Origin: a candidate division WOR-3 bacterium
GTDB lineage: Bacteria; Hydrothermota; Tepidihabitantia; SM23-42
DNA: 44,238 nucleotides
Assembly (NCBI GenBank): GCA_011052815.1
Contig: DRIG01000014.1
Location: forward strand, 1 to 44,238
Reading direction: 5' to 3'
Part shown: in pieces, positions 17,399-24,574 of the stretch
Position numbering within the stretch: position 1 is the stretch's first letter
Layout of the letters: every line of letters starts with the position of its first letter
Notes under the pieces: generated by a model
The model's database searches: none
Told to the model about the DNA's origin: nothing
Seen by the model: the letters and a program-made list of their open reading frames with translations, nothing else
Position numbers and translations under genes: made by a program

Positions 17399-18330
17399 GG
17401 ATCATTATCACCGGTGGCGCCGGTTTCATCGGTTCTCACCTTGTCGACTATTATATAGAAAAAGGGAATGAAGTGGTGGTTGTCGATAACCTGATCAGCG
17501 GACAGAAGAAGAATCTTGTTCAGCACTTCGGGAACAAAAAATTCACTTTTATGGAAACAGATGTCTGTACGGTCACCGCGCTCGACGGAGATGTTGATTT
17601 GATTCTACATTTTGCCTGCCCGGCGAGTCCTTTTGACTATCTGAAATATCCTATTGAAACTTTGATGGTTATGTCTGCAGGTACCGCCAATATGCTCAAG
17701 CTCGCTCTTTCGAAAAAAGCCAAGTTTCTTCTCGCTTCCACGAGTGAGGTTTATGGAGACCCGGAAGAGCATCCACAGAAAGAGGACTACTTCGGTAATG
17801 TGAACCTGTTCAGCCCCCGGGCGGTTTATGATGAAGGAAAACGTTTCGCCGAAACATTGACTCTTGCCTTTCACAGAAAATACAGACTTCAGGTCGGCAT
17901 TGTGCGGATATTCAACACCTATGGTGAAAGGATGCGCGCCGGAGACGGTCGGGTTATTCCGACATTCATTAATGAGGCGTTGAAGAATCAACCTCTGTCG
18001 ATCTTCGGTGACGGTAAGCAGACAAGAAGTTTTTGTTATATCACTGATATGGTGAAAGCCATTGTGAAAGCGGTTCAAATCGACTATCCTTTGCCGATAA
18101 ATGTCGGGAACCCCGCCGAGTACACGGTGCTTCAATTGGCAGAGGTGATAAAACGTCTTTGCAACAGCAAGAGCAGTTACCGTTTTTTACCTCTGCCTGA
18201 CAGTGATCCGAAAAAGCGTAAACCAGATATTACTAAGGCGAGAGAATTGCTCTGCTGGGAACCCAAGGTTGATCTGGAAGATGGGTTGAAAAGGGTGATT
18301 GAATGGTTCAGGAGGGAAGAAAATGGGTGA
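17395..18330 (+). CDS. uxs: UDP-glucuronate decarboxylase (UDP-xylose synthase)
   Basis: 311 residues, an extended short-chain dehydrogenase. TGGAGFIGSHL at the N-terminus binds NAD+. The signatures of UDP-xylose synthase are clear: FACPASPFDY, STSEVYGDPEEHPQ, the catalytic YDEGK (Tyr-xxx-Lys) and RIFNTYGERM. The reaction decarboxylates UDP-glucuronate to UDP-xylose. The usual Cys in CYDEGKR is Val here. The start overlaps ugd by four bases and the stop overlaps the MscS-type gene by eight. Ugd plus this enzyme convert UDP-glucose to UDP-xylose in two steps, probably for a cell-surface glycan. Confidence 0.92.
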   Translation: MRIIITGGAGFIGSHLVDYYIEKGNEVVVVDNLISGQKKNLVQHFGNKKFTFMETDVCTVTALDGDVDLILHFACPASPFDYLKYPIETLMVMSAGTANMLKLALSKKAKFLLASTSEVYGDPEEHPQKEDYFGNVNLFSPRAVYDEGKRFAETLTLAFHRKYRLQVGIVRIFNTYGERMRAGDGRVIPTFINEALKNQPLSIFGDGKQTRSFCYITDMVKAIVKAVQIDYPLPINVGNPAEYTVLQLAEVIKRLCNSKSSYRFLPLPDSDPKKRKPDITKARELLCWEPKVDLEDGLKRVIEWFRREENG

Positions 18331-19165
18331 ATGGCTTAAACTACATGCCCTTAAGATTATAATAACCGTTGTCATCGGACTTGTTGTTTATCTGATTCTC
18401 CAGAATATCATTCCCCGCTTTGTCCACAGGACAATCAGTTTAAGGATGAAGAATAAAGAGAAGATTGAGATAGAAAAGCGAAGTCGGACGCTTTCGCGGG
18501 TGCTGACAGGGACCGCGGGTCTGTTGATTTGTCTGGTTGTTCTTTTTACCATCCTTGCGGAGATAGGAATCAATATAGCTCCCGCCCTGGCGAGTCTCGG
18601 AATCATCGGTGTTGCGGTGGGATTCGGTGCCCAGAGTTTGATAAAGGATTTCATAAACGGACTCTTCATCCTTATGGAAAACCAATATGGTATAGGTGAT
18701 GTCGTGAAGATTGCGGGAATCAGCGGACTTGTGGAAGAGGTAAATCTGCGGCGGACGATTTTGAGGGATCTGGATGGCGTGGTTCATTATATTCCCAACG
18801 GTGTGATCAATACGGTGAGTAATATGACCAAGGAATTTTCCCGGGTTAATATGAATATTTCCGTGGCGTATCGGGAGGATTTAGACCATGTTATAGAAGT
18901 CATCAATCGGGTCTGCGCTGAAATGGCTGAGGAACCGATATGGAAAGGACGTATCAAGAAACCGCCGCAGGTCTTAAGGGTCGATGCTCTCGGTGATTCG
19001 GGCATTGAAATCAAGATCCTCGGTGAGACCGCTCCTTCCGCACAGTGGGATATTATGGGAGAACTTCGTAAGAGGATAAAGAGAGAGTTTGACAGGGAAG
19101 GGATTGAAATTCCCTGGCCGCATATGAAAGTGATTGTGACGGGTACACCGATTAAGGGCGCTTGA
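18323..19165 (+). CDS. MscS-family mechanosensitive channel
   Basis: 280 residues. The ATG at 18323 is preceded by CAGGAGGGA. Three transmembrane helices occupy about residues 8-120. The pore helix region (ASLGIIGVAVGFGAQSLIKD) carries the Gly/Ala packing pattern of MscS TM3. The beta domain follows with GIGDVVKIAGISGLVEEVNLR and HYIPNGVI, and then the C-terminal alpha/beta domain. These channels open under membrane tension and relieve osmotic stress. It is the last gene of the envelope-sugar unit, overlapping the UDP-xylose gene by eight bases. Its TGA stop lies inside the -35 element of the next promoter. Confidence 0.94.
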   Translation: MGEWLKLHALKIIITVVIGLVVYLILQNIIPRFVHRTISLRMKNKEKIEIEKRSRTLSRVLTGTAGLLICLVVLFTILAEIGINIAPALASLGIIGVAVGFGAQSLIKDFINGLFILMENQYGIGDVVKIAGISGLVEEVNLRRTILRDLDGVVHYIPNGVINTVSNMTKEFSRVNMNISVAYREDLDHVIEVINRVCAEMAEEPIWKGRIKKPPQVLRVDALGDSGIEIKILGETAPSAQWDIMGELRKRIKREFDREGIEIPWPHMKVIVTGTPIKGA

Positions 19166-19189
19166 CAGGAATAAATTTCCAATTATAAT
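19162..19189 (+). promoter_or_regulatory. Promoter of the SBP-TonB fusion gene
   Basis: TTGACA at 19162-19167, containing the upstream stop codon, and TATAAT at 19184-19189, spacer 16 bp; both hexamers are perfect consensus. A leader of about 18 bases carries AGGAGG at 19203-19208, so this gene has a normal ribosome binding site. Confidence 0.85.
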
Positions 19190-19213
19190 GTATATATATA
19201 TCAGGAGGCTAAT

Positions 19214-21301
19214 ATGAAGAAGTTTTTTTCAGTATTACCTATTTTGCTGCTGTTGACGGCAGTATGCGCCAAAAAAGAGGAGAAGCTGGTTGGAGAACAG
19301 GGTGGTAAAATGGTTATCGGTACTACAGAACTTCTCACCACCATATCACCGCTTTCTCCGTCTGTTTTTGGTTCTAATGAGATTCTTGATTTATTATTTA
19401 TGCACCTGCACCGTATCGACCCGGAGACCGGGAAGATGAAACCCGAGCTCGCTTCTTCCTGGGAGTTTTCTGAAGACCTTACTTCAATCACCTACTATTT
19501 ACGCGATGACGTCACCTGGTGGGATGGTGAACCGGTTACGGCTGAAGATGTTCTTTATACCTATGAAAAGATGAAGGACCCCAAGACGAATTACCCCAAT
19601 ATTGCAAGGCTTCGGTTCATTAAAAACGTTGAGGTGGTCGGACCGCATGCGATTAAATTCACCTTTGATAAGGTCTACGCCGATCTCCTGACAGATTCTG
19701 ATATTATGCCGGTACCGAAACATGTCTATGAAAAGAAAGGTGATAAATTCGGTCAGGCTCCCGTGGGTAATGGGCCATATAAGATAAAAGAATGGATTCC
19801 AGGCTCAGGCCTTGTTCTATATGCCAATGATAGTTATTATCGCGGTAAACCGCCGCTTGATACGATATTTATTGAATATTATTCAGATGTCACCAAGATG
19901 TATGAAGATTTCAAGAACGGTAATCTCGATATGGTGTTGAATCTTACTCCGGAAGCGGCGAAGGAATTGGAGAAGAACAAAAATATCAAGGTTGATTCAA
20001 GGCCGGGTAATACTTTTACCTATGTCGGATGGAATTTGAAGCATCCTTATCTAAAAGACAAGGAGATTCGTAAGGCACTGACGATGGCGATAAACACCAA
20101 AAAGATATTGAACGACGTATTTTCAGGAATGGGTACTATTTCACTCGGACCGCTGCCGCCTTCATCCTGGGGTTATAATGAAGAGATCACGCCGATTCAG
20201 TATAATCTCATCGGCGCAAAAAAGATCCTGGAAAAGAAAGGTTTTACTGATTGGAACCGCAATAAGATATATGATAAGAACCGTAAGGATTTCACTCTCA
20301 CCATTATCACGAATGTGGAGAGTCCTGAGCGGGTGAAGATCCTCGAGAGCGTCGCCAATGATTTAAAGGCTCTCGGCGTCAGGGTTAAAGCGAAGGCACT
20401 GGATACCAAATCGTTCATCACCGCACTTGTTCAACGAGACTTTGACGGTTTTATCATGGGGTGGAGCATGGGTGAGAAGATAGACCCGACCGTCTACTGG
20501 CATTCAGATCCGAAAAAGGGGCGGTTTAATTTTGTCTCCTATAAGAACAGTGTGGTTGATTCACTTATTGAGATCGGTGTCGCTATGCTCAATCGTAAGA
20601 AGGCTAAAGAGATCTGGCACGAATTTCAGAAAATTGTTTATGGAGAAATGCCTTATACGTTTTTGGTCGTTGCGAACAAGATCTCCGCTACCTATAAAAG
20701 GGTGAGGGGTGTTGAACAGGGAATCAGTATTGCTGACGCCTACACCTACTGGATCCCCGAGGCGGAACGGAGGGTTGTGGTCGCTTCACTAGCTCCAGCA
20801 CCGGTGGATACCACTCCCGAGGTGACGACGCCGACGGCTACCGAAGAGAAACCGACCAGACCGACATCTAAAAAAGTGGAGGAGTTGACTCCGACAAAGC
20901 CTCCTGAAGTTGTCAAACCAGAAGCCCTTCTTGAGGCTGCGGTGAAGAAAGAGACCACTTCTGTTGCACCTACCCCTCCGGATACCGGCGAGGCGCCGGC
21001 AATCACTCCGCCTGAGCCTCCGAAACCTTCGATTATCACCCGTGCCACGCCGATAAAACAGGTGATGCCCAAGTACCCGGATGCGGCGCGAGCGGTCGGT
21101 GCAACCGGTAGGGTAGTGGTGAGAGTCGTTGTCGGTACAGATGGTAAGGTGAAGAGCGCTACTATTTTATCGAGTTTTGGAAATCCGGCTTGCGAAGCCG
21201 AAGCACTGGCAGCTGCCAAGAAATGGGTGTTCAAACCGGCAACAAAAGACGGTGAGCCGTTTGAACAGAAAATTTCAATACCGTTTAACTTTAAACCCTA
21301 A
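19214..21301 (+). CDS. Peptide/oligopeptide-binding protein (SBP family 5) fused to a TonB C-terminal domain
   Basis: 695 residues, preceded by AGGAGG. The signal peptide ends at LLLTAVCAKK, lipoprotein-like, though Val just before Cys is not the usual lipobox residue. Residues about 35-515 are a complete family 5 extracellular solute-binding domain: LTSITYYLRDDVTWWDGEPVTAEDV is split by typical spacing, with VGNGPYKIKEWI and an IRKALTMAIN segment. Residues 516-608 are a Pro/Thr/Glu/Lys-rich linker. Residues 609-695 are a TonB C-terminal domain (PKYPDAARAVGATGRVVV, DGKVKSATILSS, AKKWVFKPA). SBP5 proteins normally deliver peptides to an ABC permease, and TonB domains normally contact outer-membrane receptors from an inner-membrane anchor. 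Here neither a permease nor an ExbBD gene is adjacent. The fusion is continuous with no frameshift. Function is open. Confidence 0.9.
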   Translation: MKKFFSVLPILLLLTAVCAKKEEKLVGEQGGKMVIGTTELLTTISPLSPSVFGSNEILDLLFMHLHRIDPETGKMKPELASSWEFSEDLTSITYYLRDDVTWWDGEPVTAEDVLYTYEKMKDPKTNYPNIARLRFIKNVEVVGPHAIKFTFDKVYADLLTDSDIMPVPKHVYEKKGDKFGQAPVGNGPYKIKEWIPGSGLVLYANDSYYRGKPPLDTIFIEYYSDVTKMYEDFKNGNLDMVLNLTPEAAKELEKNKNIKVDSRPGNTFTYVGWNLKHPYLKDKEIRKALTMAINTKKILNDVFSGMGTISLGPLPPSSWGYNEEITPIQYNLIGAKKILEKKGFTDWNRNKIYDKNRKDFTLTIITNVESPERVKILESVANDLKALGVRVKAKALDTKSFITALVQRDFDGFIMGWSMGEKIDPTVYWHSDPKKGRFNFVSYKNSVVDSLIEIGVAMLNRKKAKEIWHEFQKIVYGEMPYTFLVVANKISATYKRVRGVEQGISIADAYTYWIPEAERRVVVASLAPAPVDTTPEVTTPTATEEKPTRPTSKKVEELTPTKPPEVVKPEALLEAAVKKETTSVAPTPPDTGEAPAITPPEPPKPSIITRATPIKQVMPKYPDAARAVGATGRVVVRVVVGTDGKVKSATILSSFGNPACEAEALAAAKKWVFKPATKDGEPFEQKISIPFNFKP

Positions 21302-21359: not shown

Positions 21360-21388
21360 GCCCTCCGGTGGGGGCCCCCCATTTTTTT
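21360..21388 (+). terminator. Probable terminator of the SBP-TonB gene
   Basis: A GC-rich hairpin (21360-21375, GCCCTC/CGGT loop/GGGGGC with one G-T pair) is followed by CCCCCA and then seven T at 21382-21388. The T run is displaced by six bases from the stem, so strength is uncertain. Confidence 0.55.
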
Positions 21389-21393
21389 AAAAA

Positions 21394-22750: not shown

Positions 22751-24574
22751 TTATTTGACTAAAATTATTTTTTGTGCCATATTCTGTTCATCGTCTTTAA
22801 TTAACAGAAAATATACGCCATCGGCATGCCCGGCAGGAAAGGTAATGGTGGTTTCCGCCTGGTCGGTTGTGCTGCTGAAGATGACCTTACCGCTGACGTC
22901 CACTATCTGGAGATGTGCGTGATCTTCTCCGGGGACCAGATCAGGTATTTCCACGCTGATCTTTCCTCTAAAGGGATTGGGATATATGCGGATATATTGA
23001 ATATAAGTGTTATCATATTCTTCAGCAGAGGTCTGCTCGAACTCGTAGGCGCCGATGTCGATATACTGGCCTCCGTTCGGTGGTACTGGATATGTCGGGT
23101 CTCCGGCGTCGATGCAGGGACTTGAATCCGTAAGGAAAAAATTTGATTCCGGATGTCCCGGACCAGGGTATGCTGAAATAACATAGGGCTCAGTACATAT
23201 CGAATGTAAATCCTGACCGCTGAATGACTGCCACTCACTGAGTGTCATCTTGGTCGATGTCGGTTTGCCGACCGCGATGAATCTGCTCGGGTACTCGGGG
23301 TTATATACGCAGTTATAGTCCATATCATATTCGTTTACGTAGAAGAATTCTCCGATCCATATATTCATATTTCTGTGATCAGGCGGATAAGTGTGGGTGA
23401 AGAGTGTATTTCTGACTTTTATATTCGTCGAGTGATAGGAAGAATCTTCTCCGTATGTATGATTGAGGAATGTCAGGTCACAATTTTCTATAAGTACATT
23501 GTCGTTATACCAGAACTTGATCGCCTCCTGGCACTGCTGGCCTGCCTCACATCGTCGGAAGATTATGTTGTTCGGACGGCCCGTAGCGCCGTTGCCGTCG
23601 AGTTTGAACCCGTGGTTCGGACAGCCGTACCACCTTGAATCTTCAATGACAACGCTCTCGCAGTCGCCGCTTAATGCCGCCGCATCGGTCTGCCACCATA
23701 TCTCGACGCCCTTTATCAAGACCGTATCACATGCTGCCAGGGATAATCCTGATATACCGTGCGGCAGCATGTGATAATTGAACGGCGTGGAAAGACGCCA
23801 GAGCCGATTGATAGAACAATTTTCGATATGGAGATTGTTTGATTGGTATCCTCTGAGGACTGCACCGATGATGGTATCGGCGACGAGTTCGATATTTCTG
23901 CAGTTGTAGATATATACACCGAAACCGGCGGAGCCCCGGGCTGATTGGCTCCTGATGATGAAACCTTTTATCTGAATGTGATCTTTGGAATCAAGATAAA
24001 GACCATATTGACGTTTTACCACTTCAATGTTGTGGATAAGTGAATCAGGCGGTTGCCCGTCGGCGGTATGGACATATAGTATATTACTGTTGTCATCATA
24101 CCAGAATGAACCGGGATTGGCTTCTACCGAAGATATTGAACTTGTCGTATCCAGATATGGCCGCAGTACAACAGAATCCGAACCGGCGAGTTGAACAACA
24201 CCCTTCACTTCGAAATCCGGGAAGGGCGTCTGAAACACGTGGTTGTAACCGCTGACCAGTGTGAATTGTGATTCGTCTATTATTTCACTGCCGGCTATTT
24301 CAGCTTTTTCATCGGTATAGTAGACGATAGGTGCACTGCTGCTGCCGCTGTTTAGGGGCTGAATTCTTTCACGATAGACCGCATTGGCGACGATGACTGA
24401 ATCACCGGCGGTGAGCACCTGCGCGGCTTTTGTTATCGTCGCCCAGGGATCGTTCCAGGAGAGACCGCTGTTGTTGTCATCACCGACAGTGCCGTGCACT
24501 CCGTCTTTATCGACATAATAGGTGGCCGCAGAGAGAATGTTTATGATGATGAAAAGAAAAGTAAATATTTTCAC
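22751..24574 (-). CDS. Secreted right-handed beta-helix protein with type-IX-like sorting domain
   Basis: 607 residues from a GTG with GGAGGG directly upstream. A signal peptide (about 1-17) leads into YYVDKDGVHGTVGDDNNSG and PWATITKAAQVLTAGDSVIV, the usual opening of secreted parallel beta-helix proteins (pectate-lyase fold). Residues about 180-400 contain repeated short strands with Asn ladders (NNLHIENCSI, DTVLIKGVEI, NNIIFRRCEA, DNVLIENCDL). PCIDAGDPT and DIGAYEFE near residue 500 are standard in this class. The last 85 residues are a sorting domain (IRIYPNPFRGKI, DGVYFLLI) ending KIILVK. Such proteins often bind or cleave polysaccharide; no catalytic residues can be assigned. It lies between the C25 peptidase and the split gene, 12 and 11 bases away. 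Confidence 0.88.
   Translation of the reverse strand: MKIFTFLFIIINILSAATYYVDKDGVHGTVGDDNNSGLSWNDPWATITKAAQVLTAGDSVIVANAVYRERIQPLNSGSSSAPIVYYTDEKAEIAGSEIIDESQFTLVSGYNHVFQTPFPDFEVKGVVQLAGSDSVVLRPYLDTTSSISSVEANPGSFWYDDNSNILYVHTADGQPPDSLIHNIEVVKRQYGLYLDSKDHIQIKGFIIRSQSARGSAGFGVYIYNCRNIELVADTIIGAVLRGYQSNNLHIENCSINRLWRLSTPFNYHMLPHGISGLSLAACDTVLIKGVEIWWQTDAAALSGDCESVVIEDSRWYGCPNHGFKLDGNGATGRPNNIIFRRCEAGQQCQEAIKFWYNDNVLIENCDLTFLNHTYGEDSSYHSTNIKVRNTLFTHTYPPDHRNMNIWIGEFFYVNEYDMDYNCVYNPEYPSRFIAVGKPTSTKMTLSEWQSFSGQDLHSICTEPYVISAYPGPGHPESNFFLTDSSPCIDAGDPTYPVPPNGGQYIDIGAYEFEQTSAEEYDNTYIQYIRIYPNPFRGKISVEIPDLVPGEDHAHLQIVDVSGKVIFSSTTDQAETTITFPAGHADGVYFLLIKDDEQNMAQKIILVK

Follow-up and report, generated by a model that had tools for sequence, protein, structure and literature searches.

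A family 5 solute-binding domain and a TonB C-terminal domain joined in one putative lipoprotein of the phylum WOR-3 (Candidatus Stahlbacteria)

A single gene in a 44,238-nucleotide stretch of contig DRIG01000014.1 from a candidate division WOR-3 bacterium (hereafter the window) encodes a complete family 5 solute-binding domain (SBP_bac_5) joined by a long linker to a complete TonB C-terminal domain (TonB_C). Each half is ordinary; for the combination, an SBP_bac_5-TonB_C architecture, we found no description in the open-access literature. The absence of its permease sets the fusion apart from standard ABC binding proteins, and the absence of the motor segment sets it apart from TonB. We propose, with a probability of roughly 45%, that it is a lipid-anchored binding protein whose TonB_C domain docks on TonB-dependent receptors, so that the ligand would be captured at the pore.

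The open reading frame is intact and runs from ATG to TAA over 695 residues on the plus strand. The gene and its surroundings comprise the following features (positions are those of the window):

18299 to 19165, plus strand: MscS-type mechanosensitive channel, the upstream neighbour (Pfam; neighbourhood comparison)
19162 to 19189, plus strand: sigma-70 type promoter, TTGACA-16-TATAAT (12/12 matches to the consensus)
19203 to 19208, plus strand: Shine-Dalgarno sequence AGGAGG, with the ATG 5 bases downstream (sequence reading)
19214 to 21301, plus strand: SBP_bac_5-linker-TonB_C fusion, a putative lipoprotein of 695 aa (Pfam; one-frame, full-length relatives in 46 genomes)
19214 to 19267, plus strand: signal peptide (17 aa) and Cys18, the predicted lipid-attachment site (conservation of the Cys)
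19292 to 20773, plus strand: solute-binding domain, family 5, residues about 27-520 (Pfam; AlphaFold2; best Foldseek matches AppA 1xoc and NikZ 4oet)
20774 to 21028, plus strand: disordered linker rich in Pro, Thr and Glu, residues about 521-605 (pLDDT below 50 at 521-566 and 578-605)
20918 to 20953, plus strand: conserved short helix PExLLEAA, residues 569-580, a candidate docking motif (alignment; AlphaFold2 helix)
21029 to 21298, plus strand: TonB C-terminal domain, residues about 606-695 (PF03544; PDB profile search; Foldseek)
21367 to 21392, plus strand: terminator-like hairpin (21367-21383) and T tail, 3' of the gene (pattern scan, in which such hairpins are no more frequent here than expected by chance)

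The promoter overlaps the stop codon of the MscS-type gene, a neighbour that is conserved in the family and is not tied to ligand transport. A search of the protein against Pfam placed SBP_bac_5 at residues 74-429 (E 5.6e-84, profile positions 1-358 of 368) and a complete TonB_C (PF03544) in the same frame at residues 619-694 (E 8.5e-22), and NCBIfam returned TIGR01352, 'TonB family protein', above its cut-off. The AlphaFold2 model, for which 38 homologues served as input, has a mean pLDDT of 82.6; the solute-binding part is folded to about residue 520, and a second folded domain spans about residues 606-695. The first-pass annotation of this DNA had described one frame behind one promoter, a complete family 5 domain, a 93-residue linker and an 87-residue TonB domain. 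All of this holds: there is a single frame with one sigma-70 promoter, the Pfam match is joined by an AppA-like fold, and both lengths are right to within a few residues of the AlphaFold2 boundaries.

Structure comparison with Foldseek matched the solute-binding part to AppA (1xoc) and NikZ (4oet, 8efz). For the C-terminal domain, residues 566-695 were modelled separately, and the top match was 6i97_D, a FoxA-bound TonB, with a TM-score by target of 0.85. Further TonB structures followed (1u07 and others including 2gsk), with TolA much weaker, and a profile search of PDB sequences agreed in returning TonB chains (E 3e-13); 2gsk and 2grx, like 6i97, are receptor-bound forms. The fused domains also retain YP, G and IPF.F, which belong to the TonB fold. 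The C-terminal domain keeps the receptor-binding fold of TonB. The ligand of the other domain may be something other than a peptide: the domain is about equally close to AppA and to nickel binders of the NikZ type, and the substrate-specific models for oligopeptide, nickel, glutathione and dipeptide binding proteins all score well below their NCBIfam cut-offs.

At the N-terminus, an equivalent of Cys18 is present in 37/37 homologues with a readable start; in most cases the next residue is small and the one after it is K or R. The position before it is mostly Ser but often falls outside G, A or S; in the window copy it is V, and this lipobox (TAV-C) is weak by the E. coli rule. The conservation of Cys18 argues for lipidation despite the weak lipobox. 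The genome encodes LolA, so sorting of the protein to the outer membrane is possible. TonB itself starts with an inner-membrane helix that carries an SHLS-type motif (PMC12204202). No His precedes the Cys in any of the 37 readable homologues, and no further segment of the protein exceeds a mean hydropathy of 1.1; the motor helix with its SHLS-type motif, the part of TonB that binds ExbB/ExbD, is therefore missing.

The linker contains 19 Pro, 15 Thr and 11 Glu in 85 residues, and its length and sequence vary among homologues except for the PExLLEAA segment. We detected this motif in 31 of the 38 linkers, compared with 5% of linkers after shuffling, and E570 and L573 are conserved in at least 90% of the 38 sequences. 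The helix is probably bound by some partner. It may be similar to the ExbD-binding stretch of TonB.

We surveyed 147 genomes of the phylum WOR-3 / Candidatus Stahlbacteria and found relatives of the fusion in 52 of them, at 33-74% identity over the full length. In 46 of the 52 the gene is one open frame with both ends and no stops, present as a single copy per genome, and the other six are cut at contig ends or interrupted. In the interrupted relative (G026:C81:8409-10395; L026, L053), a stop and a frameshift break the reading near residue 460, which may reflect real decay or a sequencing error. The first-pass annotation had named relatives with the two parts as separate genes as a sign that the fusion is spurious; none was found among the 147 genomes. 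The source genome of the window is a draft in 111 contigs, and together with the broken relative this is what could suggest that assembly or annotation had joined two genes. The same one-frame fusion nevertheless recurs in 46 genomes, which represent several families and several assemblies and include single-contig chromosomes, which refutes such an artefact and leaves it next to no probability.

Pairwise identities of the SBP part and of the TonB_C part are correlated (r 0.88). Among the fused TonB_C domains, 35/38 cluster apart from the phylum's true TonBs and the other three sit on long branches, in a domain that is too short for a firm tree. To judge from these sequences, the fusion is old and has been inherited as a unit. 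A scan of 85,000 species, which detects close relatives only, recovered both parts solely in WOR-3/Stahlbacteria records, one of them labelled TA06. A match to the TonB part alone in Kryptoniota (L028) proved to be an ordinary TonB.

The source genome (2.39 Mb, 97.6% complete) encodes eight TonB-dependent receptors, so that a lack of receptors, which had been put forward as grounds for rejecting a receptor-linked role, is not what is seen here. Receptors are in fact present in 147/147 genomes of the phylum, and their co-occurrence with the fusion is uninformative because the 95 genomes without it carry them too. The genome also has an ExbB-ExbD-ExbD-TonB set that adjoins a receptor (contig C39), an ExbB-ExbD-TonB set (C43) and a TolQRA-like set (C103). 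With TonB, ExbB and ExbD encoded in operons of their own, the fusion does not serve as the TonB of the cell. The first-pass annotation was correct that neither permease nor ExbBD genes lie near the fusion; ExbBD and TonB sets occur elsewhere in the genome, and an Opp/Dpp-type peptide permease occurs nowhere in it, a point that the annotation had missed.

The absence of this permease bears on the most conventional reading, that of an ordinary ABC-importer binding protein with an incidental TonB_C domain, serving a distant or divergent permease. Proteins with SBP_bac_5 usually serve Opp/Dpp/Nik importers, and the fold is that of AppA and NikZ. Yet the seven permeases of the genome that match BPD_transp_1 (PF00528) resemble, by neighbours and sequence, two PstCA pairs, one MalFG-like sugar-type pair and one TauC-like protein; all are thus assigned to other importers, and none is a cognate Opp/Dpp/Nik-type permease. 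The OppB/DppB marker BPD_transp_1_N (PF19300) is absent from the genome and was matched in 8/147 genomes of the phylum versus 11/14 controls. Two of these eight carry the fusion, one with a match that passes the cut-off (G128) and one with a weak, broken match below it (G011). The lack of Opp/Dpp permeases is therefore nearly phylum-wide, closed genomes included, and we regard the ABC-importer reading as quite improbable. POT peptide carriers were considered as an onward route for the ligand, and the genome has none. Few ABC transporters were also reported for the cultured WOR-3 strain sy37 (PMC12285271).

Neighbourhoods of the fusion differ between families. Across 31 fusion loci, no transporter or receptor gene is consistently linked, and as a rule no receptor, TonB or ExbBD gene lies beside the fusion. 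Depending on the family, the neighbours, as named from their sequences, are sugar-nucleotide genes, MscS, and pyrimidine or peptidase genes. A conserved membrane-protein neighbour (c9) was rejected as a candidate partner, since 136/147 genomes have it whether or not they carry the fusion. In 136/147 genomes there is a polytopic membrane protein (L092:498-1790 and relatives; G000:C47:4906-6105), mostly in single copy, that is about 400 aa long and has a repetitive, charged tail; it often adjoins the fusion in distant families, and the two copies searched had no Pfam match. Elsewhere in the window, a gene on the minus strand (22751-24574) encodes a Por_Secre_tail domain and a right-handed beta-helix, which suggests type 9-like secretion in the phylum.

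In the mechanism that we favour, Cys18 would be lipidated after export and the protein would be seated in a membrane, probably on the side of the outer membrane that faces the periplasm. The family 5 binding domain would be tethered there by the flexible linker of about 85 residues. The TonB_C domain would add to the TonB box of a receptor by beta-strand pairing, as the free C-terminal domain of TonB does, and would keep the binding cup beside the pore, so that a ligand leaving the receptor could be caught immediately. The docked domain may itself aid ligand release. As the protein has no membrane helix for coupling to the motor, the force would come from true TonB-ExbBD complexes, or release would be force-free. 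As there is no Opp/Dpp-type permease, the captured ligand would pass to another carrier, or would serve in periplasmic breakdown, storage or sensing. The data show the fusion and its conservation, both folds, the receptors and the missing permease; the lipid anchor and its membrane, docking, hand-over, the ligand and its onward route are inferences. Two observations speak against the docking model: the fusion gene is not regularly found next to receptor, TonB or ExbBD genes, and the lipobox of the window copy is poor.

It is plausible that the receptor would hand its ligand over to the binding protein, and there is precedent in E. coli. TonB is reported to interact there with the binding proteins FhuD and BtuF, according to work cited in PMC3813593, and a TonB without its membrane helix suffices for cobalamin to be released from BtuB and taken by BtuF (PMC9853854). 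A bolder version of the proposal is import across the outer membrane with no motor at all: the lipid-anchored TonB domain would engage TonB-dependent receptors and set the ligand free independently of proton motive force, and the SBP fused to it would trap that ligand locally, in a phylum that has given up peptide ABC importers. This version is speculative, and we hold it to be rather doubtful.

The TonB_C domain might instead act as an envelope tether, holding the lipid-anchored SBP to peptidoglycan or another wall partner and making it a diffuse periplasmic scavenger or sensor independent of receptors. TonB C-terminal-like domains may bind partners other than receptors. The lack of a consistent receptor neighbour is in line with a tether, as are stand-alone TonB_C lipoproteins without a motor in related families, which make the membrane-anchored TonB_C a theme. 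We observed three such small lipoprotein-type proteins, with one or two TonB_C domains and no motor helix (L127, L128 and L129, in G030, G056 and G053), all in families without the SBP fusion. The fold and sequence of the fused domain are nevertheless nearest to receptor-binding TonB, above TolA, and the retention of the TonB-fold residues also speaks against a tether, which we consider unlikely but not negligible.

Alternatively, the fusion could regulate import rather than assist it: TonB_C would compete for receptors with true TonB, and the SBP, on binding its ligand, would switch this competition to give uptake feedback. A TonB_C domain without a motor would be a natural competitor of TonB, an SBP without a permease suits sensing, and other SBP_bac_5 domains in the phylum are fused to chemoreceptor signalling domains. 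The conserved linker helix, however, hints at an additional partner that would be superfluous in a regulator, and this reading appears distinctly unlikely to us. One chemoreceptor fusion of 1049 aa (L077:6131-9280, on contig C105 of G000, with L078 on C83 as a second copy) combines an MCP signalling domain (E 2.5e-27) with a C-terminal SBP_bac_5 (E 3.1e-80), has no evident signal peptide, and is followed by CheY-like, CheA-like and CheC-like genes. Many genomes of the phylum contain frames of about 1050-1090 aa that include an SBP of this kind. The protein appears to bind its ligand in the cytosol and to be connected to a chemotaxis-like system.

The idea that TonB joins receptors and periplasmic binding proteins has so far rested on contacts reported between individual proteins of E. 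coli. Nature's own covalent link between the two, retained by many families of one phylum, supports this arrangement independently and offers a convenient means of testing it. The retention of a family 5 SBP in cells without its supposed permease also implies that some 'peptide transporter' annotations may be wrong.

Compared with known systems, the fusion shares with the cluster C proteins AppA, OppA-DppA and NikA (SBP_bac_5) the whole binding domain, the fold (1xoc, 4oet) and a lipoprotein-type start, but it differs from them in the added linker and TonB_C domain, in a genome without an Opp/Dpp permease, and in reaching no NCBIfam equivalog cut-off. With TonB (PF03544; TIGR01352) it shares the complete C-terminal receptor-binding fold after a proline-rich linker, whereas in place of the N-terminal motor helix and its SHLS-type motif it has a lipid-type Cys and a binding domain about 500 residues long. 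FusB of Pectobacterium, a homologue of TonB, makes contact with its receptor as well as its substrate; unlike the fusion, it is still anchored in the inner membrane, and its TonB domain itself binds the substrate, which is a protein. A parallel to the proposed logic is the hand-over by BtuB-TonB-BtuF and FhuA-TonB-FhuD in E. coli, where a TonB domain, a receptor and a binding protein meet at the pore. The E. coli hand-over takes place between three separate proteins and its SBP feeds an ABC permease, whereas the fusion, with no permease known, carries two of the three in one chain.
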